A stretch of DNA of 64,000 nt from Gammaproteobacteria bacterium. Its GTDB lineage: Bacteria; Pseudomonadota; Gammaproteobacteria; HTCC5015. Shown piece after piece: positions 34,901 to 60,474 of the stretch. The notes under the pieces were generated by a model. The model had not been told where the DNA came from and did no database searches. It worked only from the letters and a program-made list of their open reading frames with translations. The stretch spans positions 372,001 through 436,000 of the forward strand of contig JACDDA010000001.1 of NCBI GenBank assembly GCA_013817245.1, given 5' to 3'. The translations under genes were made by a program, and so were the position numbers. Within the stretch, counting starts at the first letter, position 1. The number at the start of each line of letters is the position of its first letter.

Positions 34901-37670
34901 AAAAATCTTCGTGGCCAAACTCATCTAAAGAAGGTTCTTCTAAATTAATTCCATCGAGCTCGGCTATTAAAGAATCACTAGCAGAAGGCGTTTCAATGTT
35001 AGCGAATTGATCTAGTTCATCTATATCAGCAAAATTATCTAATTCAATAGAATCCGTACTGCGTCGTGCGGCCATGGGCACACTAGTTGTTTCCAACATA
35101 ATTTCTTCGCGCGCCATTTCTTCGCCGCCGAAATTATCGTCATCGCCGATATCATTACTGACATCACCATCAGCAACTTCTAATAAAATTTGTTCGGATT
35201 CAGCCGGTTCTTCCGCAAGCGTGGATTCATCCATGCGACGTAATGCACCTAACGACACTTGTTCTGCCTGCTGCATTAATTCAAAAACATTATCGGCGGG
35301 TTGTTCGTCGCCGCGCAGCTGCGCAATAAGTTGCGGCAGAACGGTAATTGCTTCTTCAATGACTGCAAATAATGCAGGCGAAGTATTAATAGTGCCTTCA
35401 ATAAAACGATTCAACATCGTTTCCATCGCCCAAGCAAACTCACCAATGAGCGTTGCGCCCATCAATCGGCCACTGCCTTTTAAGGTATGGAAAGAACGAC
35501 GAATAGTGGTAACCGCTTCACCGCTGCCATGATCTTGTTGCCACAGCGGGAAATATTCATTTAAGCGATTTAATTCTTCTAATGCTTCTTCAATAAAAAT
35601 TTCTAGAATTTCTTCATCGGCATCTTGGCCAATAATTTGCAGATGCGCGTATTTCTCTGTCAGTTCCGCATGGCTAAGGAGGCGTTTTTTAGAAACTGGA
35701 ACCGTCGCAGCGGGAGCTGATGCAATTACTCTCGATGAGAAATTCATTTCATCATCAACAACCGCTGCATCGATATCAAGTGAATGTATGTCTGAACTTA
35801 AGTCAGCCGCTAAGGCGGATAACTCGCCCGTTATATCTTCTAAAGTAGGGCCATTACCTTCGCCGTCAACCGCCTCAAACTCAGAGGTTAAATCATCTAA
35901 ACTGATGCCATCGTCTTCAAAAATATTGTCGTCATTTTCATATTCTGAAACATCGCCCTGCACATTACCTGAACGCAAGCGTGACAATGCATCTTCTGCC
36001 GCTGCCACGTATAAATCCATTTCCATACGATTTTCAGCGGCCGCCTCAAGAAAACATTCTATGTTGGTGACAACATCCGCTAGGCGATCTTGTTCCCGCT
36101 CCGATAATGGGCGCGGTTTAGCAATTAAGGTTTGTACAAAATAATCGTGCATGCCTGCAATCACGCCCACCACAGCGTCTAAAGGCGAAACGAACATTGC
36201 GCCGGCTAACTCTTTTAATGCTGGTGGAATTTCTTTTAAATGCTCGACTTCGTTATCTTGGACATAACGTAAAAATGCATCTTTTAATCGCGAAATGTTT
36301 TTATAAGCTTCATTTACAACCGCACCAATAACACGTTGATTATCGGAAGTGGTTTTATTATCGGCTTCACTAACACGCGCATTAACATTGGCTGGTTCTG
36401 GCTGACGATGATGAACATAGGCTTCAAGTTCATTTTCGACAATCAACAAAACGCCGGCGGCTTGCATCAATGCATTTTCTGATGGTGCAGTATCTAGTTT
36501 AATAGCGGCGTCTAATTTATTACGGCCATCTAATACGCTTTCGCGTGCTCCGCCCATTCCCAACATGCCTAAGGTATCAGCAATCTTGGTATATAAAGGT
36601 AAGACTTCCCGAATACGATTAATATCTTTATTGGCCGTCTCCGCGAAGATTTCGAGCAAATCTTTGGCTTGATTAACATCTTCATGCACCGCTTCCGCGA
36701 CTTTTTCTAGCAGCTCTTGAGTTGGCCCGGTCATTTGTTGTTCGGCGCGCGCGCGATCTTCATCACTCGCTAAATAACGATCTAAATTAAAATCTTTTTG
36801 AACTTGCACGATAGTGTCGCTAACTGGTTTAGCGCGTGCTACGTAATACAGAATGTTTTTTGTGAGTTGTTCTGGTAACGTTTTGACAAAGGTTTTTTCG
36901 GGTTGCTCGCTCAGATTTTTTATTTGTCTATCAACTTTACCCATTAAAGACTTCAATGCAACGCTCGCATCAACACCTTTTTTTGCTAAGGCTTCAGTAA
37001 TCGCGAGTGACACCCACCATAAACGCCGACTCGCATCATCATTAGCGGCGCGGCGTAAGCGACTAATCACTTGCCGCATGCGCTTTAAACCCGCTTCTGA
37101 ATCTTGGCCTTTAAACCAACCTAACAAGCCTAATTGATAGTGATGACGCAATTGTTTGGCGAGCGCTTGGATATCTTCGCCACTGCTTTTTTGTGCAGCA
37201 CTTGCCGCACCATCGTAAGTACCCGTAGCAACAGAGGTATCAGGAAAGAACAAAACATTTTCAGATAATAAAGCCGCATTGCGACAAGCACGTAAATCAT
37301 TTAATAAAGGCAACAACACCATTGGCACGTCTTTATTGCCAGCAGCCAAACTATCAAGATAACTGGGTAATTTAAAAACCGCTGCTAATAAAACTTCTTC
37401 TGCATTTTCACGGTTGGGAACAGTGTCATCGCGTAAACCACGAACCACTTCTTCCATTTCTTCGCATAATAAAGACGCGCCATATATTTCAACAAGCGAC
37501 AAAGTCCCGCGGACTTGGCGTAATAAATTAATAATTTCATCAAGACGTCCGCGATCATCTGGTGCTTCAATAAAAGCTTCCAACATCCGTTGAATTTCAA
37601 CGATGATCTGCTGGAGCTCTTCTTTAACCCATTTGAGCGAATTAAATTGGACTGTGTTTCCCAACTGCAT
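31905..37670 (-). CDS. chpA: Hybrid chemosensory histidine kinase ChpA
   Basis: ChpA is the CheA-type kinase that controls twitching motility and, in P. aeruginosa, cAMP levels. The 1921-residue protein has degenerate Hpt-like helical modules in its first 600 residues and three canonical Hpt sites (HTLKGSGR, His728; HTMHGSAK, His1006; HTLKGSAH, His1154). Dimerisation and catalytic domains follow (HMLRNAVFHGIE, VADDGRGIDP, GRGVGMDVV), then a CheW-like domain and a C-terminal receiver with phospho-acceptor Asp1849 in LFLMDIEMPRMDG. P. aeruginosa ChpA is longer (about 2470) with more phosphotransfer sites. Acidic low-complexity linkers separate the Hpt modules. Confidence 0.95.
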   Translation of the reverse strand: MQLGNTVQFNSLKWVKEELQQIIVEIQRMLEAFIEAPDDRGRLDEIINLLRQVRGTLSLVEIYGASLLCEEMEEVVRGLRDDTVPNRENAEEVLLAAVFKLPSYLDSLAAGNKDVPMVLLPLLNDLRACRNAALLSENVLFFPDTSVATGTYDGAASAAQKSSGEDIQALAKQLRHHYQLGLLGWFKGQDSEAGLKRMRQVISRLRRAANDDASRRLWWVSLAITEALAKKGVDASVALKSLMGKVDRQIKNLSEQPEKTFVKTLPEQLTKNILYYVARAKPVSDTIVQVQKDFNLDRYLASDEDRARAEQQMTGPTQELLEKVAEAVHEDVNQAKDLLEIFAETANKDINRIREVLPLYTKIADTLGMLGMGGARESVLDGRNKLDAAIKLDTAPSENALMQAAGVLLIVENELEAYVHHRQPEPANVNARVSEADNKTTSDNQRVIGAVVNEAYKNISRLKDAFLRYVQDNEVEHLKEIPPALKELAGAMFVSPLDAVVGVIAGMHDYFVQTLIAKPRPLSEREQDRLADVVTNIECFLEAAAENRMEMDLYVAAAEDALSRLRSGNVQGDVSEYENDDNIFEDDGISLDDLTSEFEAVDGEGNGPTLEDITGELSALAADLSSDIHSLDIDAAVVDDEMNFSSRVIASAPAATVPVSKKRLLSHAELTEKYAHLQIIGQDADEEILEIFIEEALEELNRLNEYFPLWQQDHGSGEAVTTIRRSFHTLKGSGRLMGATLIGEFAWAMETMLNRFIEGTINTSPALFAVIEEAITVLPQLIAQLRGDEQPADNVFELMQQAEQVSLGALRRMDESTLAEEPAESEQILLEVADGDVSNDIGDDDNFGGEEMAREEIMLETTSVPMAARRSTDSIELDNFADIDELDQFANIETPSASDSLIAELDGINLEEPSLDEFGHEDFFAEADNDSSDNDEIELLSLEEEIDTAKKLPTNVGPAVQIDSVLLEIFTDEVRHLNKVITGFTQTARHTNVTAKDKEVLIRALHTMHGSAKTAKCKGMAEMAKAMELHSNNLIELGEQWAALELSLLDELVRYVDASLEYLHEHTAELIDEQNLTIRLQECLAQSQPRVESFRETQQQKTGSMITEEIDSELLDIFMEEAPDMVESTDHALQTWLESGYSTESFSEILRQLHTLKGSAHMASLSGIGDLAHAMESLFIPIGNKKLKMTPALQRVLQEAVDRLSSMLEQVRQGQMPYLTPEYAALLEAARHGNLPETTAVHQAVQVPEEPEKTGSNVIFAADVSSAEAQMLAVRREMDAKQAIGFDMPDVTDVGDKDLPSAATQIQQDLIRVRADRLDAMVNFAGEVNIYQSRLGKQFTDITFNLGELEQTVRRLRLQLRDMDMQTEAQIASRVEREMDNPNEDFDPLEMDRYSNMQQLSRSLAESANDIENIRDALGDLVRDSEVMVLQQSRVSTELQEELLQTRMVRFEGLTNRLRRLVRQTAQQLKKKVELRVLGAEQEIDRSVQDRMLAPLEHMLRNAVFHGIETPEERRAADKNETGIIQVSIERDGSYIVMNVADDGRGIDPAIIRRKAIEKGLMAANDPRSDQEVMQFILHEGFSTADSVSQLAGRGVGMDVVDTEIKELGGSLIINSKKGKGTVFSIRLPLTLAINQALLIQVGEDVYAISLAVIEGVARISNQDVEKNLSGEVTEYQYAGDAYHMFYLGSVLAVPKPANLNTETQFSLLLIRAGERRLAAYVDNMLGRREIVVKPVGSQISSLPGISGATILADGRVALILEPGALMRSERDTALTQFEAEAEEQQVEQTITHATRSKHVVMIVDDSITIRKVTARILARHNLEILTAKDGLDAIEQLRDHIPDLFLMDIEMPRMDGFELASHVRGDPRLQHIPIIMITSRTGEKHRERARKIGVERYLGKPFQEVELMQEIDALLGRESV

Positions 37671-37703
37671 AATGAAAACCCGGAGCTAGCTCGCAAGCCC
37701 GCT

Positions 37704-39785
37704 CTAGTTAATCGCCACAGTGGTGACATCACCGGATTCTGGCAGCTTAAAGCCCGAAACTGATTGCCGTAATTCGTTGGCTAGTTCCGTTAAGTTACCT
37801 ACCGATTGACTTGCTTCGCCCGTACCTTCATACGTTTCTTTAGTAATGTTTTGAATAACATTCATTGATTGTGAAATCTCAATTGCATTTCCAGCTTGTT
37901 CACTCGCTTGACGTGAAATGCCTTGAATCAAATCTGCCAGTTGTTTAGAAACCGATTCAATTTCATTCAACGCCGCGCCCGCATCTTCTGCGAGTTTCGC
38001 ACCCGTTACTACACCCGCGGTGCTTTGTTCCATCGAACTGACCGCTTCATTCGTATCCGCCTGAATGGTTTCAACCAGCACGGAGATCTGTTTTGTTGCA
38101 GCCGAGGCACGTTCTGCCAAACGCTGAACTTCGTCCGCGACCACCGCGAAACCGCGGCCCGCATCACCGGCCGATGAAGCCTGAATGGCGGCGTTTAACG
38201 CTAGAATATTCGTACGGTCGGCAATATCAGTAATCAGCAATACGATTTCACCGATCTGTTGCGATGATTCACCCAATCGTTTAATTCGTTTTGACGTTTC
38301 TTGAATCGTTTCACGAATGGAATCCATACCTTCAATATTACGACGCACCGTTTCCGCACCTTTATGCGCGATCTCAACTGACTTCAGCGCTACTTCTGAA
38401 GAATTCAAAGCGTTCTTCGATACTTGCTCCATGGTTTTCGCCATGCGCGAAATAGCATTGGTAGTAGTCGTAATTTCACTAGTTTGTTGTTGCGATGCAT
38501 CGGTCAAACGATTCGCAATATTTTGCGTTTGACGAGTCGCTTGCGATACCCGCGCTACTGTATTGTGAATAGCTTCTACCAACGAACGCAATGCGTCGAT
38601 AGAGAAATTAATAGAATCCGCAATAGCGCCGGTAATATCTTCCGTTACGGTCGCGTGCGCGGTTAAATCACCTTCTGCAAGGTGAGTCATTTCATCTAGT
38701 AAACGCAAAATAGCTTCTTGATTACGACGATTAATTTCTTGTGATTCGGCCGCACGATAACGCGCATCGCGGAACTGTAATACAGTTAACAAGCCAGCAG
38801 AAAATACCGTGATCAAAGCGGCCAAAATACCTACCACAATCGTCCCGCCATTTTGATCATCTAATTCATTAATGGCTTTTTCTAAACGTACGGCAGCTTC
38901 TAATAACTCAGGAGATGTTAATTGAATATCTCCTGCTGCATCTTTTACTTCAGACAACAACGGCGCTTGAGTAACAATCGTCGCTACCGCACCCTCCACT
39001 GACGTAACAATTTTTTGGGCTTGCACTAATTTTGTTACTGCTCGATCCGATTTAACGCGCGGAATGTTTAATTCTTGGCTGCCATGTAATAGACCATCTA
39101 GTACGCGACCAAAGAAATCAAAGTCGCGACCAAACTGCTCAACTGCGGTTGCCGCTTCTTGATTGCCATTTAAAATTAAATTCAAGTTACTTTGAGCACG
39201 CTCAACAAATAAAGATTGTCGCGATGCCATATATAAAGTTTGCATATTGTTGGCGTCTTGCACCAAATCACCGGCCGAACTTTCCACTATACTTTCAATC
39301 TCTTTAAGCGCTTTCGTTACTTCAGTTACGCGCGCTGCCACATTCTTAACTGAATCGCGATTACTGATAATGACATTTATGTTCAACAGGAAGTCTTGCT
39401 CCCATTTGTTGACCATGTTTTCCAAATCTTTTTCTGGTGTTTCAGGAAACGCAGGCAAACCTGTTTCAGGATTACCATTGCGAATAATATTCAACGTTTC
39501 TTGAAAACGATCGCGATATTTTTCTAAGCGTTCAAACGCAGCAGAGTTACCGCTGGCGGCTTCTACCGCAGTGGTAGTAATGCGTTGCGACAGTAATTTT
39601 TGTTCGGCAATGTAACCCAGGTTTTCACTATTGAATTGATTCATAAACCATGCAAACAAGAACGTGATGATAACGACCACCAACGATACAAAACCGGCAA
39701 CGGCAACGAAAAACTTCAATGCATTGCCTACTAGCAATCCACGAAAATCCGTCGGTCTGCGCATGCTTTGGCCAAATAAACCCAT
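37704..39785 (-). CDS. pilJ: Twitching-motility methyl-accepting chemotaxis protein PilJ
   Basis: PilJ is the receptor of the Pil-Chp pathway. The 693-residue protein has an N-terminal transmembrane helix (about 25-50), a long periplasmic region with two helical PilJ-type repeats (one with EQKLLSQRITTTAVEA, one with TLYMASRQSLFVERAQSNL), a second transmembrane helix near 315-340, a HAMP-like linker and a cytoplasmic signalling domain with the hairpin tip IADRTNILALNAAIQASSAGDAGRGFAVVADEVQ (given here only to locate it, about residues 520-553). Length matches P. aeruginosa PilJ (682). Confidence 0.95.
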   Translation of the reverse strand: MGLFGQSMRRPTDFRGLLVGNALKFFVAVAGFVSLVVVIITFLFAWFMNQFNSENLGYIAEQKLLSQRITTTAVEAASGNSAAFERLEKYRDRFQETLNIIRNGNPETGLPAFPETPEKDLENMVNKWEQDFLLNINVIISNRDSVKNVAARVTEVTKALKEIESIVESSAGDLVQDANNMQTLYMASRQSLFVERAQSNLNLILNGNQEAATAVEQFGRDFDFFGRVLDGLLHGSQELNIPRVKSDRAVTKLVQAQKIVTSVEGAVATIVTQAPLLSEVKDAAGDIQLTSPELLEAAVRLEKAINELDDQNGGTIVVGILAALITVFSAGLLTVLQFRDARYRAAESQEINRRNQEAILRLLDEMTHLAEGDLTAHATVTEDITGAIADSINFSIDALRSLVEAIHNTVARVSQATRQTQNIANRLTDASQQQTSEITTTTNAISRMAKTMEQVSKNALNSSEVALKSVEIAHKGAETVRRNIEGMDSIRETIQETSKRIKRLGESSQQIGEIVLLITDIADRTNILALNAAIQASSAGDAGRGFAVVADEVQRLAERASAATKQISVLVETIQADTNEAVSSMEQSTAGVVTGAKLAEDAGAALNEIESVSKQLADLIQGISRQASEQAGNAIEISQSMNVIQNITKETYEGTGEASQSVGNLTELANELRQSVSGFKLPESGDVTTVAIN

Positions 39786-39831
39786 AACTACTCTCCGTTA
39801 AATGCTTTACACAAACGAGATGTCTTCAGCA

Positions 39832-40386
39832 TCACGCGTGCTGCCGTTCGGCAATGTCTAAAAATTTTTCATTCATCGTAAACGCATGGAAATCAAAAAC
39901 GGGCCATGAATCATAGCCGCGTCGAAAATGACCTTTCGTATACGGCGCGAGCTTTTCATCAACGATGGCTTGCGCATTTACAAATTCTTCTGCGCTCAAG
40001 TTCTTCAAACCTGTCACGCCGGTTACTACCAAACCCACTAGCGACGTACCTAAACGAAACAAAATAGTCCGATCCCCGCGTTTTACCGTGCGCCGCGTAT
40101 CATACAAGTAACCATGAACATCCATGATCGGCACTAACGTGCCACGCACATTCGCAATACCGTAAAACCAAAAACGGCTCCAAGGGATCCGTGTGCAATT
40201 AACCGTTTCTAAAATTTCCGATACTTGATCCATATTAACGATCAATTCGGTTTCACCAATTTTAAAACCTAAACCACGCCATTCGGTAGTTTTCTGCAAC
40301 GTCCGATGTTGTCCACGACCTTCACGCGCACGTGCATGTGCGTCTAACTCTTTTAACAATACCACCGGCGTTACATTTGCCGGCAT
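39832..40386 (-). CDS. pilI: CheW-like adaptor PilI
   Basis: PilI couples PilJ to ChpA. The 184-residue CheW-domain protein has WRGLGFKIGETELIVNMDQVSEIL near 37, FYGIANVRGTLVPIMDVHGYL near 74 and GLVVTGVTGLKNL near 116. The ATG at 40386 shares one base with the pilH stop (TGATG), implying translational coupling; a TTG one codon upstream is less likely. Confidence 0.92.
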   Translation of the reverse strand: MPANVTPVVLLKELDAHARAREGRGQHRTLQKTTEWRGLGFKIGETELIVNMDQVSEILETVNCTRIPWSRFWFYGIANVRGTLVPIMDVHGYLYDTRRTVKRGDRTILFRLGTSLVGLVVTGVTGLKNLSAEEFVNAQAIVDEKLAPYTKGHFRRGYDSWPVFDFHAFTMNEKFLDIAERQHA

Positions 40387-40751
40387 CAAACGCTGCCTAA
40401 TAAAGAGCCTAACCGGCCAATTAAATCATCTTCTTCTACCGGCTTGACCAAATAATCCAAAGCGCCTTGACGCATGCCCCATACTTTATCGGTAGCACCG
40501 CCTTTGGTGGTCAACATAATGATGGGGATATTCGCCGTACGCGCATCTTTAGTCAGTTGGCGCGTGGCTTGAAAACCATTCATGCCGGGCATTACCACAT
40601 CCATCAAAATGGCATCGGGTAATTCGGTTTGCGCTAAACGCACGCCATCTTCACCGGTGTTCGCTACCAATACCTCATAATGATGCTTTTCAAGGTAGGT
40701 TTTAACGACATAGGTTTCAGTAGGGGAATCATCAACAACTAAAATTTTCAT
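40386..40751 (-). CDS. pilH: Twitching-motility response regulator PilH
   Basis: This is a 121-residue single-domain receiver. It has acidic residues in LVVDDSPTE (about 5-13), phospho-acceptor Asp in AILMDVVMPGMNGFQATRQL near 52, and the conserved Thr and Lys in MLTTKGG and LVKPVEE. I place the start at 40751, where GGAGA lies seven bases upstream and the protein begins MKILVVDD like its homologues; an in-frame upstream start would add seven residues. In P. aeruginosa PilH acts opposite to PilG and favours retraction. Confidence 0.94.
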   Translation of the reverse strand: MKILVVDDSPTETYVVKTYLEKHHYEVLVANTGEDGVRLAQTELPDAILMDVVMPGMNGFQATRQLTKDARTANIPIIMLTTKGGATDKVWGMRQGALDYLVKPVEEDDLIGRLGSLLGSV

Positions 40752-40806
40752 GGCCGTCTCTCCAGCAGACAACGTACGTTCATTCCTTGGAATTTTGTTT
40801 TACGCA

Positions 40807-41190
40807 TTAACTGCCAACATGCTCTTTAATAGCGCCTAACAAATCCTCTTTAGTAAAAGGTTTGGTTAAGTATTTTTCAGAACCGACAATACGGCCCCGC
40901 GCGCGATCAAAAATGCTGTCTTTGCTCGACAACATCACCACTGGCGTGGATTTAAACATGCTGTTGTTTTTAATCAGCGCACACGTTTGATAACCATCCA
41001 AACGCGGCATCATGATGTCGACAAAAATAATGTCGGGTTTGTGCTCACTGATTTTAGCTAAAGCCTCAAAACCATCACTCGCGGTGATAACTTCGCAGCC
41101 CACTTTTTTAAGTAAACTTTCGGCAGTTCGCCGAATAGTTTTACTATCATCAATGACCATGACCTTGAGGCCAGTTAATTCTTCGCTCAT
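40807..41190 (-). CDS. pilG: Twitching-motility response regulator PilG
   Basis: This 127-residue receiver domain is very close to P. aeruginosa PilG: KVMVIDDSKTIRRTAESLLKKVG at about 9-31, phospho-acceptor Asp in IIFVDIMMPRLDGYQTC near 58, MLSSKDS and YLTKPFTKEDLL. PilG promotes pilus extension and adenylate cyclase activation in Pseudomonas. It is the first gene of the pilGHIJ-chpAC operon and is divergent from gshA. Confidence 0.96.
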   Translation of the reverse strand: MSEELTGLKVMVIDDSKTIRRTAESLLKKVGCEVITASDGFEALAKISEHKPDIIFVDIMMPRLDGYQTCALIKNNSMFKSTPVVMLSSKDSIFDRARGRIVGSEKYLTKPFTKEDLLGAIKEHVGS

Positions 41191-44711: not shown

Positions 44712-44796
44712 ACCAACACCCAACTTCCTCCGTTCGATAATGGCTAGCTAATTTAAAGTAGTTATCCATGCGCTGTTGGCGGTAGAATCGCCTCAC

Positions 44797-45726
44797 ATGT
44801 TGAAAGAAAACTTATCAGCCATCCATCCAACGTCGGCAACCACACAAATGTTGCTGCCCACGCCTGCGGCGCTAAAAATTAGCGCGGCAGATCGTTTAAG
44901 CCTAACTTTATTTTTAGCGGCGGCGGCGCATGCGGTGCTTATTTTAGGCGTGTCTTTTGTACCGGGTGACTTGGCTAATTTAAAGCCGCCACCGACGCTG
45001 GATATTATTCTGGTGCAACAACACGACAATGATCGCCCCGACGAAGCCGATTATCTCGCGCAAACCTCGCAAACCGGCGGCGGCACGTCGGAAGAACGTG
45101 CGCGACCCAGTGATTTATTTGCTTCAACCGAACCTTCTATTAATCAAGGCATCGCGCCCCAACCCATGGAAGCCGGCAAAATAAAACCGCTCACACAAGA
45201 ACAAATGCGGGTGCTAACACAATTACAAGCGGAAGAAAAAACCGCGCTCACTGAAGCGATGGAAAAAACCGAACCGACTGTTAATGAAGAAGAAAAACCG
45301 TTTGAATATGATTTAGAAATCGCCCGATTAACGGCCGAACTCAATCAATCAATGGATACTTATGCAAAACGTCCGACTAAATTAGTCGTTAGCGCCAGCA
45401 CTCATGAAATTGTATCTGCACAATACATGCAGCAATGGGTAGAAAAAATCGAACGCTTAGGCAATATCAATTACCCTAATGAAGCGCGTGTAAAAAAACT
45501 CGAAGGCGATTTGATTCTAGAAGTCGAATTAAAATGGGATGGCAGCATTGTTGCGATTCGTTTAATTCAATCATCAGGTCATCGCATTTTAGATGACGCT
45601 GCGAAACGCGTTGTTGAAATGGGCACACCGTATCCACCGTTCCCACCTAATCTGCGTAAAAAAGCCGATCATTTACAAATTGTGCGCACCTGGCAATTTC
45701 AGCAAGGCGATTTACAAACACATTAA
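44797..45726 (+). CDS. tonB: TonB-family energy transducer (TonB3-like)
   Basis: From the ATG at 44797 the protein has 309 residues: a cytoplasmic tail, one transmembrane segment (about 36-58), a long acidic Glu/Gln/Thr-rich periplasmic spacer, and a C-terminal TonB domain (about 215-300: RLGNINYPNEARVKKLEGDL, VAIRLIQSSGHRILDDAAKR). Position between gshB and algH matches P. aeruginosa tonB3, which is needed for twitching motility rather than iron uptake. No ExbB/ExbD genes are nearby. A TAGAAT at 44783-44788 lies just upstream. Confidence 0.88.
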   Translation: MLKENLSAIHPTSATTQMLLPTPAALKISAADRLSLTLFLAAAAHAVLILGVSFVPGDLANLKPPPTLDIILVQQHDNDRPDEADYLAQTSQTGGGTSEERARPSDLFASTEPSINQGIAPQPMEAGKIKPLTQEQMRVLTQLQAEEKTALTEAMEKTEPTVNEEEKPFEYDLEIARLTAELNQSMDTYAKRPTKLVVSASTHEIVSAQYMQQWVEKIERLGNINYPNEARVKKLEGDLILEVELKWDGSIVAIRLIQSSGHRILDDAAKRVVEMGTPYPPFPPNLRKKADHLQIVRTWQFQQGDLQTH

Positions 45727-46333: not shown

Positions 46334-46784
46334 AAATCCCGTCATCAATTCGCTATTAGGATTCGATTTTGGTTTGAAGCGTATCGGCGTAGCCAGTGGC
46401 CAAACGTTTACTAACACCGCATCGCCGGTAGCCATTGTTGATGCTAAAGACGGTGAACCCGATTGGTTAGCACTGGATAAATTAGTTCGCGAATGGCGCC
46501 CACATGGATTAGTCGTGGGCTTACCGCTATTCCCTGATGGCAGTCCTGGCGATATGACTGAGCCCGCCAAACGTTTTGCCAAAGCACTAGAACTACGTTT
46601 TCAATTGCCGGTGTTTTTACAAAACGAAGCTTTAAGTTCTCGTGAAGCGGATAGCCTGATGCAACACCAACGCGCCACTGGCATTCGCAATCGCAAAGTC
46701 CGCAAAGGTGATAATGATCGCGTCGCCGCGAGTTTAATTTTGCAGCGCTGGTTGGCCCAGCAACAAAATCTAAAATCTTCCTAA
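46326..46784 (+). CDS. ruvX: Putative pre-16S rRNA nuclease (YqgF/RuvX)
   Basis: This RNase H-like family protein processes the 5' end of 16S rRNA in E. coli. The 152 residues include the catalytic-site motif LLGFDFGLKRIGVASGQ near 10, VVGLPLFPDGSPG near 61, LQNEALSSREAD near 95 and the C-terminal DNDRVAASLILQRWL with a conserved Asp. It overlaps algH; pyrR, found next in Pseudomonas, is absent here. Confidence 0.95.
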   Translation: MPENPVINSLLGFDFGLKRIGVASGQTFTNTASPVAIVDAKDGEPDWLALDKLVREWRPHGLVVGLPLFPDGSPGDMTEPAKRFAKALELRFQLPVFLQNEALSSREADSLMQHQRATGIRNRKVRKGDNDRVAASLILQRWLAQQQNLKSS

Positions 46785-46804
46785 CGCCACACTCTAAAAT
46801 TCGC

Positions 46805-46834
46805 TGCGTGTTCGGCCCGCATTCCCGCTATAAT
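46805..46834 (+). promoter_or_regulatory. Putative promoter of pyrB
   Basis: A perfect TATAAT lies at 46829-46834, 27 bases before the pyrB start. The -35 element (TGCGTG, 46805-46810, 18-base spacer) is poor. I see no pyrimidine attenuator leader. Confidence 0.4.
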
Positions 46835-46860
46835 GGCCTCCCTTACGCGGCTAAGACGGC

Positions 46861-47841
46861 ATGAGCACCCACAACCTGCAATTAACTCCCGATGGGAAAC
46901 TGCAACACCTGCTCGACACCGAGGGTTTATCCCGTTCGCTGATAGAACATATTCTCGATCAATCTGAATCTTTTATTGATCTCAATACTGCCTCTATAAA
47001 AAAAGTGCCTTTGCTACAAGGCAAAACCGTCGCCAATTTATTTTTTGAAACCAGCACACGCACACGCACCACGTTTGAACTCGCAGCCAAACGCTTATCA
47101 GCGGATGTACTCAACGTTAATATCGCGACATCTGCAACCTCGAAAGGCGAAACGCTGCTCGACACCATCAAAAATATTGAAGCGATGCACAGCGATATGT
47201 TTGTCGTGCGTCACGCCGATAGCGGTGCGGTGAATTTTCTTGCGCAACATGTTGCGCCCCACGTTAGCGTCATTAACGCAGGTGATGGTCGACACGCACA
47301 TCCCACCCAAGCATTATTAGATTTATTTACGATACGTCGTCACAAAACAGATTTCAAAAAACTACGCATCGCAATCGTCGGTGACATCTTGCACTCTCGC
47401 GTTGCACGCTCACAAATTCACGCTTTAAAAACGATGGCCACCGCTGAAATTCGCGTCATTGCACCACGTACTTTACTACCGACCTCTATTGCACAATGGG
47501 GTGTCAGCGTTTTTCATGACTTACAACAAGGTCTACGCGATGTGGATGTCATCATCATGTTGCGCTTACAAAAAGAACGTATGCAAAGTGGTTTATTACC
47601 CAGCGAACATGAGTTTTATCACAGCTATGGTTTAACCCCTGAACGTTTGCGTCTAGCAAAACCTGATGCGATCGTGATGCATCCGGGGCCTGCGAATCGC
47701 GGTGTTGAAATTGCATCCAGCGTTGCCGACGGGCCGCAATCAGTCATTCTCGAACAAGTAACTAATGGTATTGCAGTGCGCATGGCGGTGATGGCAATGA
47801 CACTGCAAAATCGTCAACAAACAGCGAGTGCAAAAACATGA
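46861..47841 (+). CDS. pyrB: Aspartate carbamoyltransferase catalytic subunit
   Basis: PyrB forms carbamoyl-aspartate in pyrimidine synthesis. The 326-residue protein has the carbamoyl-phosphate-binding STRTR at 65-69 ([13 protein letters not shown]), [20 protein letters not shown] near 140, [12 protein letters not shown] near 172 and [12 protein letters not shown] near 277. The roughly 10-15-residue N-terminal extension over E. coli PyrB resembles the Pseudomonas type, in which PyrB works as a complex with an inactive PyrC'. The start of that partner overlaps the pyrB stop by four bases. Confidence 0.96.
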
Positions 47842-49121
47842 GCACGCGCATTGTCATTCAAAACGGTCGCTTGCTGGATCCCGCGAATAAATTAGATCGC
47901 GTCGCTCATCTTTATATTGAACAAGGTGTCATTGTTGGCATCGACAAAACGCCCGCCAATTTTAAAGCCGATCACATTATCGACGCGAATAAACAGTGGG
48001 TGATTCCTGGTGTTGTTGATTTAGCAGCACGTCTACGCGAACCTGGCGCAGAATATAAAACCACGATCGCAACCGAAACACGCGCCGCTGCCAATGCCGG
48101 CATTACTACTTTATGTTTACCACCGGATACCGATCCGGTGATTGACGAACCCGCTGTAGTCGAACTGATACAACAGCGCGCACTGAGCGCAGGCGGCGCT
48201 AAATTACAAACCTTAGGCGCGTTAACGGTTGGATTAAAAGGCGAACAACTCAGTGAAATGTTGGCGTTAAAACAAGCGGGATGTTTAGGTGTTTCTAATG
48301 CGTTTAAACCCTTAAGTAATAATCGCGTGTTACGCCGCGCGTTTGAATACGCTGCTACTTTCGATTTAACCGTACACATTTCACCCATGGATCTGGCGCT
48401 GTCCGCCGATGGCGTGGCGCACGATGGTTACATCGCCGCGCAACTCGGTTTAATGGGTATTCCCGTGTCAGCTGAAACCAGTGCGCTAGCGCAATGTTTA
48501 ATTTTGATTGAAGAAGTCGGCGTTAAAGCCCATTTCGGACGTTTATCTGCAGCGCGCAGCGTCGAAATGATTGCAGTTGCCAAACAGCGCGGTTTAAACA
48601 TCACCGCCGATGTAGCCGCGCATCAATTACTTTTAAATGATTCCGCCATTGCGCACTTCGACGCGCGCGCTCATGTACTGCCGCCACTGCGCGATGAAAC
48701 TGATCGCTTAGGATTATTAGCAGGTATTCGTAACGGCAGCATCGATGCTATTTGCTCCGATCATCAACCACACGAAAGTGATGCGAAAGCAAATCCATTT
48801 CCGATGACAGCGCCCGGAATTTCCGCGCTAGAAACGTTATTGCCACTTTGCTTAAAACTGGTAGCGACGCAACAACTAGATTTATCGACCGTACTAACCT
48901 GTCTGACGCGCAAACCCGCAGAAATTTTGGGTTTATCAGTAGGACAATTAGCCGTAAACACACCCGCCGATATCGCCATTATTAATCCCAATGCCAACTG
49001 GACTCTCAATTCCGCACAGATGATTAGTCGCGGCCATAACACGCCGTTTGATGGTTGGGCATTTAATCATCAAGTACAACTCACACTTGTAAATGGCAAA
49101 ATAATCGAACGCGATCTGTAA
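47838..49121 (+). CDS. pyrC: Non-catalytic dihydroorotase-like subunit PyrC'
   Basis: The 427-residue amidohydrolase-fold protein is homologous to class I dihydroorotase. Active enzymes have D-x-H-x-H before LREPG; here the sequence is [12 protein letters not shown], with Ala63 and Arg65 in place of both metal-binding histidines. Other motifs remain ([29 protein letters not shown]). In Pseudomonas the equivalent gene downstream of pyrB encodes an inactive subunit required for ATCase assembly. I infer the same role, and that an active PyrC is encoded elsewhere. The start overlaps pyrB (ATGA). Confidence 0.92.
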
Positions 49122-49208
49122 TATTTTATTAAACCCAACGTCATCTCCGCCGCTAAGCACTTTCTGTGATTGCAAAAAATTCATACCGTCCGCGAAGATG
49201 GAGTTCTT

Positions 49209-49628
49209 ATGTTTTTCATGATTTATGTCAGTTCTGCAACCCAACCTTTTTCTACAGAACAACTACGCGATTTATTAAGCGTAAGCCGCGCCAACAATAC
49301 AACCCTAAACATTAGCGGCATGCTGCTATATAAAGACGGCAACTTTATGCAAAGCTTAGAAGGCGAAGAATCAGTAGTACGCGCACTCTATGAAAAAATA
49401 TCGCTGGATAACAGACACAAAGGCACCTTGGTTTTATTACAAGACAACGTCGAAGTAAGACAATTTCCCGATTGGTCGATGGGATTCAAAAACCTAGATA
49501 ACGAAAATAACGAATCGTTGCCGGGATATAATGAATTAATGAATTATCGTTTTACTGGCGAAGAGTTTTCAGCAAACCCTACACAAGCACAGAAATTATT
49601 ATTGAGCTTTAAAAAGAATATGGGGTGA
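49209..49628 (+). CDS. Single-domain BLUF blue-light photoreceptor
   Basis: BLUF domains bind FAD and change conformation in blue light. From the ATG at 49209 (GGAG five bases upstream) the protein has 139 residues: the BLUF domain plus a short helical tail, like PixD or BlsA. The photo-active residues are Tyr6, Asn30 (in SRANNT), Gln48 (in NFMQSLEG), Trp89 and Met91 (DWSMGF); their spacing equals that of Tyr21, Asn45, Gln63, Trp104 and Met106 in AppA. With no output domain it must act through a partner. It lies between the pyr genes and the accessory region. Confidence 0.94.
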   Translation: MFFMIYVSSATQPFSTEQLRDLLSVSRANNTTLNISGMLLYKDGNFMQSLEGEESVVRALYEKISLDNRHKGTLVLLQDNVEVRQFPDWSMGFKNLDNENNESLPGYNELMNYRFTGEEFSANPTQAQKLLLSFKKNMG

Positions 49629-49735
49629 TCGTCAAATTTTTTACAATCAATTAAACCCTCATGCTAAAACGCTTTTTAGCGAATGGGGCGCAATAAACAA
49701 CGGGCATAGCGCCGTATGAAAATATAATTTTGAAC

Positions 49736-51174
49736 TCAAAAAGTCTGACCCCTTGATTTTCTATCTTGCCAAACGGATATTTTGAAGCGCCGATCCTTCT
49801 GTTGTTCGCCGACTGGTTTTATCGCGATTTCATTTTTATCTGCGTCCCAAGAAAATGCTTGTCCACTCACAGGATGAGTCGCCCATTCTGGGTGTTGTTG
49901 AATAAATGCGGGAATCTCTTTAGTCGTAATTTTTTGGCGACGAATCTCATAACCCAACTTAACCATGCGCTGTAGCGCAGCAGCATCGTAAGCACGCAAG
50001 GGGTAGTTTCGTACATTGAAGCACCGATCGCTAATAAGGTTTTGCCCATAGGGTTGTACGCGAAATTAAGTCCAAAGCTCAGATTTTTCCTCATCCAAGT
50101 CGAGTATGCATCACGAGCTACGTAAACGTTTTCTGGTTCGGCGTCAGTCATCTTAGTCAATTGTTGTATTACTTTTGAGTTCAGATTTACTGTTGCGCGT
50201 GCTTTGTAAAAATGGAGGCTGAAGCGACTCCAATAACGTTCCCACCATTTTGGCGTATCTCCCGCTATTGCGTTGCGAATATCAAATTGCGCGTCTGCGT
50301 CACGAGACATTCGATCCCATATACTTGTCATCGTCCTAAACTCGTAGGTGAACATCTTGCCAATTTTCCAGTCGTCTTGGTCGAACTGCATCACCATATG
50401 ATCGAGTTCCGTTGAAAAACTTGACAGATCGATAGTGCTATCCGCAATCATGTCGGCCAGCATTAAATAGTCTCCTTGTAGATATGCAACGGCACTCATC
50501 TTTGAAACTAGATCGCCCTCTCCCATCAACATAGCGCGCCAAACACGAATATCTCCGTCTAAATCCATAAGTGCTGCTTTTTGTTGGTGTAGATTTTGAC
50601 TTTTCATCTGCACTGCAAAATTGACAAGAAACAAAGATCGTATTTGTGATGATGGATAGATCAGCGGGGAATATAAGCTCGGTGTCGCAGTGTCGTAGTA
50701 GCCTGTAAAGTTTTTTAAGGCGAGATAACGTTGGTACAGTTCTCGGTTGTCATCGAGTAACTTCTCAATCTCGTCTTTGTGATTCTCGATTTTGTCCCAA
50801 CACGACGTTTGCAACGGATGGCAGAAATCGAGCTTGCCTTTGAAGTCGAGTAACCGTGGATTTTTTTTCGACACATCCTCGAGCGCAATACGCGGATCTT
50901 TAAGTCTGGCCTCTAGACCGACTTCGTATTCTTTGACTTTTTCGAGACCAAAGGCAACCGGTGACTCACCCATTGGAGCATCAGACCCCAATAAGGCCAA
51001 GTAAAGATTTTGATCGGCGCTAAACTGATTAGGAGGCGCAGTAAGTAGAACCGTCGTCTCTGGTGCAAGATCTTCGTCAAAGAAGTTAATCGCAATCATC
51101 ACCAGCAGCAAACCAACTGCAAACGCGAATACCCATAGCAAGCCCTTGGAGAGCCATCGCCAAATCGTTTTCAT
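49736..51174 (-). pseudogene. Frameshifted membrane-anchored protein of unknown function
   Basis: A minus-strand gene starts at the ATG at 51174: an N-terminal transmembrane helix (about 12-30), then a large, mostly helical extracytoplasmic domain, with no family I recognise. The first frame runs to 49867, but from about 50010 the sensible protein continues in another frame down to 49736 (RAYDAAALQRMVKLGYEIRR...PVSGQAFSWD). The switch falls at a CCCC run (50004-50007), so one base appears to be missing or added, by mutation or sequencing error. The last nine residues (DRKSRGQTF) are encoded by the repeat motif at 49742-49760, so the true 3' end may be lost too. Confidence 0.75.
49742..49760 (-). 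repeat. RAYT-associated repeat motif, copy 1
   Basis: AGTCTGACCCCTTGATTTT, the complement of the motif at 53271-53289 with one change. It overlaps the 3' end of the frameshifted gene. Confidence 0.7.
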
Positions 51175-51524: not shown

Positions 51525-51670
51525 CAAGGCTCAGACTCTTGTTCCTTACGATAAGCCACCGATTTTCGATCCCCGCCATGCCCTGCTGATTCTACCGCTC
51601 TATCCAATTGTTTTTCTCACTGTTTAAAACGATCACTGTCTAACACCCAAGCTTTATTAGTCGCATCACA
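51525..51670 (-). pseudogene. Duplicated 3' fragment of the REP-associated transposase
   Basis: About 145 bases match, with scattered changes and a small deletion, the 3' end of the intact RAYT gene at 53283-53999 together with its flanking motif (51524-51537, TCAAGGCTCAGACT). Shared stretches include CCCCGCCATGCCCTGCTGAT. The orientation is the same as the intact copy, so the two form a direct repeat about 1.75 kb apart. The match stops at about 51670 (GTCGCATCACA). Confidence 0.85.
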
Positions 51671-51693
51671 CATGAAATAAATAATTAGTTTAG

Positions 51694-51705
51694 CCCCTTG
51701 ATTTT
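51694..51705 (-). repeat. RAYT-associated repeat motif, partial copy 4
   Basis: CCCCTTGATTTT, half of the motif, lies 11 bases before the IS3-family fragment begins. Confidence 0.4.
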
Positions 51706-51715
51706 AAGTTAGTCG

Positions 51716-52094
51716 ATGGACGACAAAAATAATGCCGCGTCGGCTCAAGATGCATTAACGATGCCCGTGTGGAGACGAGGAAAATGCAAATCCGTTATTG
51801 CACATGCTGATCGCGGCAGTACCTATGCTTCAGGTGTTTACCAAAAATGACTGACGGACTATCAATTAATTTGCAGCATGCGTCGTAAAGGCGAATGCTT
51901 GGATAACGCGGTGGCTGAAAGTTTTTCTGATACATTGAAAACAGAATGGATTGGTCATGAAGATTACAAAACCAAATCCGATGCTAAGCAAAGTCTATTT
52001 GAATACACTGGAAGTGTTTTACAATCGCCAACGACGTCATTCATACTTAGGCTACGTCAGCCCAGAATATGAGCGGCGATTTGCCTGTCACTAA
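51716..52094 (+). pseudogene. IS3-family transposase OrfB remnant (C-terminal part)
   Basis: The fragment carries the DDE integrase end of an IS3-type OrfB: ALTMPVWRRGKCKSV, the catalytic Asp region IAHADRGSTYAS, then SMRRKGECLDNAVAESF with the catalytic Glu and LKTEWIGHEDY. An in-frame TGA at 51848 and a frameshift near 52010 interrupt it; after the shift the typical end NRQRRHSYLGYVSPEYERRF is read to the TAA at 52092. The N-terminal half, OrfA and terminal inverted repeats are not visible, so this is a dead remnant. Confidence 0.9.
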
Positions 52095-53270: not shown

Positions 53271-53289
53271 AAAATCAAAGGGTCAGACT
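53271..53289 (+). repeat. RAYT-associated repeat motif, copy 5
   Basis: AAAATCAAAGGGTCAGACT lies at the 3' end of the RAYT gene and overlaps its last codons. Confidence 0.7.
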
Positions 53290-53999
53290 GCATGATCTTT
53301 ACGATAAGCCACGGATTTCCGATCCCCGCCATGCCCTGCTGATTCTACTGCTCTATCCAATTGTTTTTCCATTCGCCGTTTAAAACGATCACTGCCTAAC
53401 ACCCATGCTTTATTGGTCGCATCACGCAAGGCCTCTAGGGTAAGTTCAGGTATGCGAGTACGAAACAGTTCACGATAAGCGGCTGGTCGTGCGGTCACTT
53501 CTTTAGCTAAGCGTTTGTATTCTTTGTGTGCGGTGATCAGCGGATTATCTTCGCCCAGCGCATTATGTCGATAACTTGACCAAAGATAATCTGCAGGGTG
53601 TTTAACTTTCTGTGGCGCTCTGACAGGATTGAGCTCTATGTAACGCATGCAGGTTAATAGGTATTGTTCGCTGTCAATCAACGTGGCTTTATAACGTCCT
53701 TCCCATAATGCGCCAGCGCGGTTGTAGCGATCGTTAAAATACTGCGTATAACAACGGCCTACGGATTGCATGACTTTGCTAATGCTGTTCTCTTCACGCG
53801 GCGTGAGCAGTAAATGCAGATGGTTAGGCATGAGTACATAGGCATGAATATCACAAGAATACTTGTCCGCTGCTTCGCCGAGTTTTTCTAGATAAAAGGG
53901 ATAGTCGTCCTTGGATCGAAAGATGTTTTTGCGATTATCGCCGCGCTGGATGATATGTTGGGGCTGGCCGGGAATTGCAAAGCGCGGTAGGCGTGGCAT
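53283..53999 (-). CDS. REP-associated tyrosine transposase (RAYT, Y1 HUH family)
   Basis: RAYTs are single-copy, domesticated relatives of IS200/IS605 transposases that are linked with REP/BIME repeats. The 238-residue protein has the N-terminal MPRLPRFAIPGQPQHIIQRG, the HUH metal motif MPNHLHLLLTP near 57-67, the tyrosine region GRCYTQYFNDRYNRAGALWEGRY near 82-104 and YIELNPVRA near 121. It looks intact. Copies of a TCAAGGGGTCAGACT-like motif flank it, and a broken copy of its 3' end lies at 51525-51670. Confidence 0.92.
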   Translation of the reverse strand: MPRLPRFAIPGQPQHIIQRGDNRKNIFRSKDDYPFYLEKLGEAADKYSCDIHAYVLMPNHLHLLLTPREENSISKVMQSVGRCYTQYFNDRYNRAGALWEGRYKATLIDSEQYLLTCMRYIELNPVRAPQKVKHPADYLWSSYRHNALGEDNPLITAHKEYKRLAKEVTARPAAYRELFRTRIPELTLEALRDATNKAWVLGSDRFKRRMEKQLDRAVESAGHGGDRKSVAYRKDHAV

Positions 54000-56990: not shown

Positions 56991-58172
56991 CTACAAATCA
57001 CCCAACTCATCCGACAAATCTTCTAATTCATCTTGGTCGATCGTTGGCATGTCGCGCGTTGGCTCTTTTTTCTTGCCTGAATCCATGCCGCCGCCAAAAT
57101 TAATTTTCCATTCAAGATTAGTACGCGAATCAGCAAACGCTAATGCTTGTTCAAGATCAATTTTGCCGTCGCTGTATAAAATAAATAATGATTGATCGAA
57201 CGTTTGCATGCCGGTTTTGCCGGCTTTTTCCATGGTTTCTTTAATGCCGCCCAACTCACCTTTGCGAATTAATTCGGCAATGTGCGGCGTATTAATCATA
57301 ACTTCAACTGCGGCAATACGACCGCCGCTTTTGCTGGGCACTAAACGTTGCGACACTACTGCGCGCAGGTTTAAAGACAAGTCCATTAAAATTTGATTTT
57401 TCTGTTGCGGCGGAAATAAATTAATCACGCGATCTAATGCTTGGTTCGCATTCACGGCGTGCAAGGTGCTTAAACATAAATGACCGGTGTCCGCATAAGT
57501 AATTGCGGCTTCCATGGTTTCTAGATCGCGTACTTCGCCGATCAAAATTACATCAGGCGCTTCGCGCATCGCTTCACGCAAAGCATTTTCATATGAATGA
57601 GTATCTAAACCAATTTCACGTTGACCAATGATAGATTTTTTATGTTGATAAACATACTCGATAGGATCTTCAATCGTCAGAATATGGCCAGCATGTGTTT
57701 CATTACGATAATCAATCATTGCGGCTAGCGTGGTAGATTTACCCGAACCTGTAGCACCCACCATCAACAGCAAGCCATTTTTATTCATGACTAAATCTTT
57801 TAATACCATAGGCAAACCTAATTCTTCAATTTTAGGTATGCGGCCTTTTATATAACGAATCACCATGGAAACTTCGCCGCGCTGCATATAAAAATTCACA
57901 CGGAAACGGCCTAAGCCAGCTTTACTAACACCTAAATTTAATTCGAGATTGTCTTCGAATAAGCCCATTTGTTTTTCGGTCAGCATCGAGTAGGCAATTT
58001 TTTTTGTCATGCCGGGTTCGAGCCGCGATTTACTTAAAGGGCGTAATGCGCCTTGTACTTTCATACTCGGTGGCGCGCCGGTCGTGAAATAAAGATCCGA
58101 CGCTTCTTTTTCGGCCATTAATTTTAGATAAGGATCTAATAAATTTTGCGATACTGGATTTGGCGTGCTCAT
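56991..58172 (-). CDS. PilT/PilU-family type IV pilus ATPase, third paralogue
   Basis: The 393-residue protein is a complete retraction-type ATPase: ASDLYFTTGAPPSMKVQG at the N-terminus, Walker A GATGSGKSTT near 136, the Asp box LTIEDPIEYV, Walker B DVILIGEVRD, and the His box GHLCLSTLHAVNANQALDR. It is closer to PilU than to PilT (FRVNFYMQRGEVSMVIR, LMDLSLNLRAVVSQRLVPS), and has an acidic C-terminal tail (QDELEDLSDELGDL) and a Gly/Lys-rich linker. It lies 33 bases after pilU on the same strand. Motor function is likely intact; the specific role is unknown. Confidence 0.92.
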   Translation of the reverse strand: MSTPNPVSQNLLDPYLKLMAEKEASDLYFTTGAPPSMKVQGALRPLSKSRLEPGMTKKIAYSMLTEKQMGLFEDNLELNLGVSKAGLGRFRVNFYMQRGEVSMVIRYIKGRIPKIEELGLPMVLKDLVMNKNGLLLMVGATGSGKSTTLAAMIDYRNETHAGHILTIEDPIEYVYQHKKSIIGQREIGLDTHSYENALREAMREAPDVILIGEVRDLETMEAAITYADTGHLCLSTLHAVNANQALDRVINLFPPQQKNQILMDLSLNLRAVVSQRLVPSKSGGRIAAVEVMINTPHIAELIRKGELGGIKETMEKAGKTGMQTFDQSLFILYSDGKIDLEQALAFADSRTNLEWKINFGGGMDSGKKKEPTRDMPTIDQDELEDLSDELGDL

Positions 58173-58205
58173 GCGATGTAGTTAACTCCCAACTCAGTGC
58201 GCAAT

Positions 58206-59351
58206 TTATTCAGTTTCTTGTAGATTGTAGCCTTTGACTTCATCTAACAAGTTCGTATCTTTAGCGCGTTTACCGTCTAGTTTAATCCGCAAGCGCAAAT
58301 CGTTTACAGAATCAGCGTTACGCAAACCTTCGTCTAAGCTAATTGCATCATCTTCAATCAAAACAAATAACGCTTGATCGAATGTTTGCATGCCTTGCTC
58401 GCGCGATTTTGCCATCAAACCTTTCATTTCATGAATTTCACCTTTGAGCATTAAATCCGCCATTAAAGGTGTATTGATTAATATTTCTACCGCTGCGCGA
58501 CGGCCATTGCCGTCGATGGTACGAATCAATCGCTGCGAAACAATCGATTTTAAATTTAACGATAAATCCATTAATAACTGCGGACGACGTTCTTCAGGGA
58601 AGAAGTTAATAATCCGATCCATTGCTTGGTTAGTGCTGTTAGCGTGCAAGGTACATAAACATAAGTGACCTGTTTCAGCAAAGGCAATAGCATGATCCAT
58701 GGTTTCACGATCACGCACTTCTCCGATCAAGATAACATCGGGCGCTTGACGCAACGTATTCTTCAACGCAATCGACCAATTATCTGTATCAGTACCTATT
58801 TCGCGCTGTGTAACTAAACAACCTTTGTGATTGTGTACATATTCAATTGGGTCTTCGATGGTAATAATATGGCCGCGACTATTTTCATTACGGTAATCAA
58901 TCATCGCTGCAAGTGATGTTGATTTACCCGAACCCGTGGCGCCTACGAAAATAACTAAACCGCGTTTAGTCATCGCAATGTCACGCAATACAATCGGTAA
59001 CAACAATTGATCCATGGTGGGAATTTCAGCAGTAATTAAACGAATCACCATGCCGACGCTGCCGCGTTGCACTAATGCGTTCACCCGAAAGCGCGAGACG
59101 CCGACTAAGCTAATCGCGAAGTTACATTCATTCGTCGCTTCAAACTCAGCGATCTGTTTATCATTCATGATGGCGCGAGTCAGTTCCATCGTATGTTCAG
59201 GCATCAATTTTTGTTTTGATACAGGCGTTAACTGTCCATCAATTTTCATTGACGGCGGCGCGCCAGCAGCAATATAAAGATCCGAACCATTCTTTGCTTT
59301 TAGCATGCGCAACAGATCGTGCATGAATTTTATCGCCTTATCGCGATCCAT
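58206..59351 (-). CDS. pilU: Type IV pilus retraction ATPase PilU
   Basis: PilU assists PilT in pilus retraction at the inner-membrane platform. The 381-residue protein matches P. aeruginosa PilU (382) along its length: GSDLYIAAGAPPSMKIDG, NECNFAISLVGVSRFRVNAL, Walker A GATGSGKSTS, CLVTQREIGTDTDNW, DVILIGEVRDRETMDHAIAF, GHLCLCTLHANSTNQAMDR and an acidic C-terminus. It lies 34 bases downstream of pilT. Confidence 0.95.
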   Translation of the reverse strand: MDRDKAIKFMHDLLRMLKAKNGSDLYIAAGAPPSMKIDGQLTPVSKQKLMPEHTMELTRAIMNDKQIAEFEATNECNFAISLVGVSRFRVNALVQRGSVGMVIRLITAEIPTMDQLLLPIVLRDIAMTKRGLVIFVGATGSGKSTSLAAMIDYRNENSRGHIITIEDPIEYVHNHKGCLVTQREIGTDTDNWSIALKNTLRQAPDVILIGEVRDRETMDHAIAFAETGHLCLCTLHANSTNQAMDRIINFFPEERRPQLLMDLSLNLKSIVSQRLIRTIDGNGRRAAVEILINTPLMADLMLKGEIHEMKGLMAKSREQGMQTFDQALFVLIEDDAISLDEGLRNADSVNDLRLRIKLDGKRAKDTNLLDEVKGYNLQETE

Positions 59352-59385
59352 ATTCCCGTCTCTCCAAAGTTAACTGTTGCTGGCT

Positions 59386-60420
59386 TTACAAAGAATCAGC
59401 GTTAGACGCTTTTTTCGCCGCATCTTGTCGATTCACAATGCCTTTTTCAACCAAGTTCTTTAAGCATTGATCCAAGGTTTGCATACCGTGTTGTTGTCCG
59501 GTTTGAATAGCAGAATACATCTGCGCAACTTTGTCTTCACGAATCAAGTTACGAATCGCGGGTGTACCTAACATGATTTCATGTGCGGCCACACGACCAC
59601 CACCATTGCGCTTCAATAATGTTTGCGAAATTACCGCACGCAAAGATTCCGACAACATCGAACGCACCATGGATTTTTCAGCGGCGGGGAAAACGTCAAC
59701 AATACGATCGATGGTTTTAGCAGCAGAACTGGTATGCAAAGTACCAAATACTAAATGGCCGGTTTCCGCTGCGCTCAAGGCTAAGCGAATGGTTTCTAAG
59801 TCGCGCATTTCGCCGACTAGAATAGTATCCGGATCTTCGCGCAACGCGGAACGCAAGGCTTCATTAAAACCCATCGTATCGCGATGGACTTCGCGTTGAT
59901 TGACGAGACACTTTTTACTTTCATGCACAAATTCAATGGGATCTTCAATCGTTAGAATGTGACCATGTTCGTTTTCATTTTTATGATTCACCATTGCTGC
60001 CAAGGTAGTTGATTTACCCGAACCCGTAGGTCCAGTAACCAACACGATGCCGCGTGGAATCATGGTGATGTCTTTAAAAATTTTCGGACAATTCAAATCT
60101 TCCAAACTAAGAATTTTGGATGGGATCGTTCGGAACACGGCACCCGCGCCGCGATGATGATTAAACGCATTAACTCGAAACCGCGCGAGTCCGGGAATTT
60201 CAAACGACATGTCTGTTTCCCAAAACTCTTCATAATCTTTACGTTGTTTATCGTTCATGATGTCGTACACCATGCCGTGAACCTGTTTATGGTCCAAGGG
60301 TTCCACATTGATGCGGCGAACATCGCCATCAACGCGAATCATCGGCGGCAAGCCTGCCGATAAGTGTAAATCTGAAGCATTATTTTTAACGCCAAACGCT
60401 AGTAACTGCGCGATATCCAT
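59386..60420 (-). CDS. pilT: Type IV pilus retraction ATPase PilT
   Basis: PilT drives pilus retraction and twitching. The protein starting at 60420 has 344 residues, the same length as P. aeruginosa PilT, and begins MDIAQLLAFGVKNNASDLHLSAG; in-frame upstream ATGs would add a non-conserved extension. It has GPTGSGKSTT near 131, IEDPIEFVHESK, ILVGEMRDLETIRLAL, HLVFGTLHTSSAAKTIDRIVDVFPA and the conserved AIRNLIRE near 288 that is needed for retraction. First of three tandem motor genes, divergent from yggS. Confidence 0.97.
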   Translation of the reverse strand: MDIAQLLAFGVKNNASDLHLSAGLPPMIRVDGDVRRINVEPLDHKQVHGMVYDIMNDKQRKDYEEFWETDMSFEIPGLARFRVNAFNHHRGAGAVFRTIPSKILSLEDLNCPKIFKDITMIPRGIVLVTGPTGSGKSTTLAAMVNHKNENEHGHILTIEDPIEFVHESKKCLVNQREVHRDTMGFNEALRSALREDPDTILVGEMRDLETIRLALSAAETGHLVFGTLHTSSAAKTIDRIVDVFPAAEKSMVRSMLSESLRAVISQTLLKRNGGGRVAAHEIMLGTPAIRNLIREDKVAQMYSAIQTGQQHGMQTLDQCLKNLVEKGIVNRQDAAKKASNADSL

Positions 60421-60474
60421 CGCCATCGAATTCACCACTCATTCTTTGTTTAAATACTCACCCCTGACACCCAA

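Follow-up and report, generated by a model that had tools for sequence, protein, structure and literature searches.

A predicted PixD-type short BLUF photoreceptor gene at a variable site separating pyrC from pilus motor genes in a gammaproteobacterium

The window, a 64,000-nucleotide stretch of contig JACDDA010000001.1 from a gammaproteobacterium of the HTCC5015 lineage, includes a short BLUF photoreceptor gene that lies between a pyrB-pyrC pair on the same strand and genes for PilT/PilU-type ATPases on the opposite strand. The key features are summarized in Table 1. The names pilG and pilH in the Pil-Chp set are presumptive, assigned by position. In the convergent gene that follows BLUF, the C-terminal part carries on in another frame. 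The REP-like repeat located just 3' of BLUF is present in 9 copies in the genome at 2 or fewer mismatches, compared with 0 copies of the reversed control.

Table 1. Features of the window around the BLUF gene (positions are those of the window)
Feature	Position	Strand	Remarks
Pil-Chp chemosensory genes (chpA, pilJ, pilI, pilH, pilG)	31905..41190	-	Hpt/HATPase/CheW/REC, PilJ, CheW, two receiver proteins
TonB3-like gene, TonB_C	44776..45726	+	Pfam scan; gene order conserved
pyrB, aspartate carbamoyltransferase	46861..47841	+	Pfam scan
pyrC-like dihydroorotase-family gene	47838..49121	+	Pfam Amidohydro_1; 87 nt upstream of BLUF
GGAG, probable ribosome-binding site	49200..49203	+	5 nt before ATG; predicted by reading the sequence
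BLUF photoreceptor gene, short, 139 aa	49209..49628	+	BLUF core aa 1-92, helical tail aa 93-139
Convergent gene of unknown family, no Pfam match	49736..51174	-	apparently frameshifted near 50000
REP-like repeat GTCTGACCCCTTGATTTT, just 3' of BLUF	49742..49760	+	further copies near 51687, 53271, 54069
Second RAYT and rve/DDE transposase, both as remnants	51540..52069		within the pyrC-pilU gap
RAYT-type Y1 transposase	53283..53999	-	Pfam Y1_Tnp 1e-16
Three PilT/PilU-type (T2SSE) retraction ATPases	56991..60438	-	domain match

The BLUF open reading frame is intact from its ATG to the stop codon. An in-frame TTG is located upstream, at 49170, but 49209 is the likely start because the relatives begin at the same Met or Val. 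Given that BLUF is on the pyrBC strand and closely follows pyrC, co-transcription with pyrC is possible; a promoter and terminator scan of 46700-50000 gave counts within the shuffle expectation and nothing usable. The protein matches the complete profile of the Pfam BLUF family PF04940 (7.7e-30, 103.3 bits against a cut-off of 25; protein residues 1-92, profile positions 1-92 of 92), the Pfam scan of its 139 residues detects no second domain, a tail of 47 residues follows the core, and phmmer matches include structures of AppA, PixD, BlsA and photoactivated cyclases. The product is an ordinary short BLUF receptor that probably works.

All five flavin-site residues, Y6, N30, Q48, W89 and M91, are present with the spacing found in AppA, where phmmer pairs query residues 6-93 with residues 21-108 of the chain (2iyg), segments of equal length. 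We take these residues to be the counterparts of Y21, N45, Q63, W104 and M106 in AppA numbering. None of 46 aligned relatives deviates at Y6, N30, Q48 or M91, and the conservation of W89 among them is 90% or more. The preliminary description had proposed a single-domain BLUF protein, flavin-site residues with the exact AppA spacing, and a photocycle that should work, with control through a partner; the full PF04940 match with no output domain found confirms the first of these claims, the pairing with 2iyg bears out the second, and for the third, a predicted competence, sequence, profile and fold all give good support. By analogy with the chemistry of PixD and AppA, blue light would shift the hydrogen bonds among Tyr6, Gln48 and the flavin, the signal would move the beta5 region around Trp89-Met91 together with the C-terminal helical tail, and these shifts would change either the assembly of the protein or the binding of a separate protein encoded away from the BLUF locus.

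The tail is conserved along with the core. Across an alignment of 20 sequences with at least 50% identity, the query included, there is no variation at tail positions such as Y107, L130, L131 and F134, and conservation reaches 90% or more at F110 (where the query has Leu), N112 and F120. The AlphaFold model of the protein has a mean pLDDT of 87, with lower values of 64-79 in the tail. In VIA-align comparisons, the strongest structural matches are PixD (2hfo; Z 21.4, 136 residues at an rmsd of 1.7) and Tll0078 (Z about 21), with 135-136 residues for the two matches, whereas BlrB and BlsA score 18.4-18.6 over 129-130 residues; Tll0078 and PixD are near the top in Foldseek as well. A profile built from 46 relatives aligns with Tll0078 (1x0p) over positions 2-133 (3.3e-28) and with PixD (2hfn) over positions 1-131, whereas its alignment with BlsA, BlrB and AppA is confined to about 1-95, so that, among single-domain structures, Tll0078 and PixD are the only ones matched through the tail. 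Because both the profile and the fold reach through the tail to PixD and Tll0078, the protein is built like PixD, and the 139-aa product is, by its predicted architecture, a PixD-type short BLUF. In PixD, the C-terminus is reported to matter for dimer formation and for PixE binding (PMC5899715).

The gap between pyrC and pilU spans 7869 bp in the window, against 133-4130 bp in 10 relatives (134 bp in the same-family genome G001). This comparison covers 10 genomes with pyrC and a PilU-type ATPase on one contig; searches of the 36 relatives yielded pyrC in 20 genomes and a PilU-type ATPase in 27, the host counted in both. In all 10 genomes, the pyrC ortholog faces pilU or pilT with pyrB, ruvX and algH behind it, and the order tonB3-algH-ruvX-pyrB-pyrC facing pilU/pilT is common to them all, as far as the stretches reach. 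The gap in the window contains BLUF, the frameshifted gene, an alcohol dehydrogenase, the RAYT transposase, a DUF4142 gene and a DAO oxidase, as well as pieces of the second RAYT, rve-type transposase pieces and REP-like repeats. The segment 49742-54087 within it is, judged by these repeats, the RAYT and the transposase remnants, an insertion hot spot. In this lineage, the BLUF gene appears to occupy a variable pyrC-pilU/pilT gap that is also used by transposable elements.

The pilus genes named in the preliminary description are all there, namely the Pil-Chp set, the TonB_C protein and three PilT-type ATPases, on either side of BLUF. As a sign of twitching control, however, this neighborhood fails: the gap is BLUF-free in 10 of 10 syntenic relatives, and tblastn with the window genes found pilM/N/O/P/Q/T/U, tonB3, algH, ruvX, pyrB or pyrC near BLUF relatives at none of 98 loci, some of which have flanks of only 1.5 kb and a few of which overlap each other. 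Apart from generic receiver and kinase domains, the same searches brought up one MCP, some matches to ADH and some to RAYT, and nothing else. Position therefore gives little reason to assume control of twitching, because the pilus genes sit there in relatives that have no BLUF; since the neighborhood is ancestral and the gap is variable and used by transposable elements, closeness to pilus genes is better read as inherited from the site than as a sign of function. Pilus regulators can settle in this gap nonetheless, given that the corresponding gap of one relative (G028; L114:5173-7609) carries pilH-like and pilJ-like genes.

A search for partners among conserved neighbors, in which the open reading frames around 71 of 76 BLUF loci (the window among the 76; L001, L003, L007, L009 and L010 skipped as duplicates) were clustered, gave no shared partner: the largest clusters, of ABC ATPases and of PAS/kinase proteins, varied in position from locus to locus. 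A photolyase-family cluster occurs near some BLUF relatives (4 loci by blastp, others by eye), and in the host genome the single photolyase match is on a different contig. When two other photolyase-like queries were used, tblastn matched only their own source loci, and for that reason we claim no photolyase enrichment.

One scan of genome contigs gave 63 loci with BLUF relatives. The closest ones, with 54-61% identity over residues 1-138, come from Rubrobacter, Nitrospiraceae, Thiothrix, Ignavibacteriaceae, a planctomycete and Methylococcaceae, so that Actinomycetota, Nitrospirota, Thiotrichaceae and Planctomycetota are all represented among the nearest relatives. In a sample of 369 genomes of the class, 46 have a BLUF match, the host included, and the best non-host match is 47% identical; among the 36 near relatives searched, one of the 3 same-family genomes other than the host has a match, which is 38% identical and adjoins an unrelated gene. 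With the nearest kin either outside the class of the host or in scattered members of it, we infer that the BLUF family spread horizontally, and we name no specific donor. The phyla are mixed in a tree of 56 rows, which has weak support at 33 of its 52 inner branches and places the query in no starred clade; transfer is accordingly read from similarity and scatter rather than from firm topology. At 0.40, the GC3 of the BLUF gene is the same as in its host neighbors, so the gene is not a fresh import.

A recently gained gene that has no present function and is heading for loss would fit the adjoining frameshifted gene and transposase debris, but we regard this as very unlikely, considering the intact reading frame, the conservation of the flavin-site residues and the tail, and the host-like codon GC3.

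Other arrangements of BLUF domains are found among the relatives. Three short BLUF genes stand in a row on one strand in G028 (L006, L009 and L010; G028:C7:109983-111638), and, by eye, one BLUF protein has a receiver-like (L032:1459-2370) and another a cyclase-like C-terminus (L005:1492-2556). A C-terminal PsiE-like membrane domain is present in BLUF proteins at six loci, given by their BLUF match coordinates (L073, L074, L077, L079, L083 and L087), from Mariprofundus, Methylotuvimicrobium/Methylomicrobium and a Methylococcaceae bin; the Pfam PsiE matches in the two scanned fusions are 4.2e-36 and 1.4e-25, and the other four were recognized by sequence match. A match on a Thiodictyon plasmid (NZ_CP020372) is also annotated as PsiE. 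Among papers that match BLUF and PsiE, no title has such a fusion as its subject. These fusions suggest a light-regulated PsiE and, in part of this BLUF group, an output at the membrane; they may deserve more attention than the original finding. Extending this output to the window protein, with a membrane PsiE-type partner as the ancestral state of the group, draws on the six fused loci and on one genome with stand-alone divergent BLUF and PsiE genes (L012:1489-2669), but is barely credible: PsiE is found at only 7 of 98 BLUF loci, and no PsiE match exists in the host genome, an absence that already disfavored this reading and for which PsiE was rejected as the partner there.

Regulation of a diguanylate cyclase or EAL phosphodiesterase, bound in trans by the BLUF protein, is a tentative and rather doubtful proposal. 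The PapB-PapA pair exemplifies trans regulation of this c-di-GMP kind. There are 7 EAL matches in the host genome, whose second short BLUF gene (L002; G000:C1:149251-149637) follows a PAS-GGDEF gene, about 400 bp downstream on the same strand, although this second BLUF is only 34% identical to the one in the window, which no GGDEF or EAL gene adjoins. On account of the EAL matches and the second BLUF behind PAS-GGDEF, a c-di-GMP output is no less plausible than twitching control.

Twitching control, in which the PixD-like BLUF would target the Pil-Chp pathway or directly the retraction ATPases, and blue light would thereby alter pilus retraction, is reasonable in general. It is in line with the PixD-like core and tail, with a Pil-Chp and PilT/U set that is complete in the window, and with co-occurrence, PilT being present in 44 of 46 BLUF genomes versus 265 of 323 others (Fisher p 0.018, uncorrected for kinship and genome size, and with G344 scored as PilT-negative, being one of 40 genomes absent from the matched rows). 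This class-wide association is a weak, confounded hint. Among the 29 genomes with close BLUF relatives, 22 carry PilT over the curated cut-off, whereas 7 do not, in one case missing it by half a bit. The host genome (G000) has no match to DUF4388/PATAN (PF14332, which we take to be PATAN) at E 1e-3, and the same search is positive in Synechococcus elongatus; PixE/PATAN was thereby rejected as the partner in the host, and the known PixD-PixE route is not available to it. Precedents exist in the PixD-PixE-PilB1 model of Synechocystis (PMC7690835; PMC5899715), in which the pilus motor PilB1 is the presumed target of PixE (PMC7690835), and in Acinetobacter baylyi, where three short BLUFs are reported to inhibit twitching (PMC4844311). 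Given these precedents, twitching control by the window protein is possible, with little support added by this locus; the ancestral neighborhood, BLUF-free in relatives, the lack of pilus structural or motor genes beside BLUF relatives at the 98 loci, the scatter of the nearest relatives over phyla and the missing PATAN protein all argue against it, and we consider it unlikely. That a PixD-type BLUF was gained in the pyrC-pilU gap and recruited there for light-set PilT/PilU retraction or Pil-Chp signaling in the absence of a PATAN regulator seems distinctly improbable.

The reading that we favor, and hold to be probable, is that of a functional PixD-type short BLUF with a partner encoded elsewhere, which has spread horizontally and owes its closeness to pilus genes to a variable site. 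The likeliest output class would be surface motility or c-di-GMP regulation through that partner. The gene itself changes little, as short BLUFs are common and have already been described in the literature as controlling surface motility in response to light. The locus calls for caution, in that an apparent photoreceptor-pilus cluster may arise from a mobile receptor gene landing in an old, pilus-flanked gap. If the link to twitching were true, light would feed into Pil-Chp twitching without a PATAN regulator, by a route unlike that of cyanobacteria.

Compared with known systems, the window protein is closest in single-sequence PDB searches to OaPAC and the Beggiatoa photoactivated cyclases, in the BLUF core only; these proteins carry a cyclase domain, which the window BLUF lacks. 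The BLUF domain of AppA has the same five flavin-site residues with the same spacing. AppA is a multidomain protein that binds PpsR. PixD (Slr1694) of Synechocystis and TePixD (Tll0078) share with the window protein the single BLUF domain and short helical tail, but are only 26-28% identical to it; PixD has a PixE-type DUF4388/PATAN partner that finds no match in the genome of the window BLUF, and operates in a phototaxis context, whereas no phototrophy or phototaxis is known for the window host. BlsA is matched by the profile of the window protein's relatives in the core only (3-95), and by fold over 129-130 residues. BlsA and the short BLUFs of Acinetobacter are likewise single-domain proteins with output in trans, for which control of surface motility or of twitching has been described (PMC6695109; PMC4844311), including control of surface motility by BlsA (PMC6695109).
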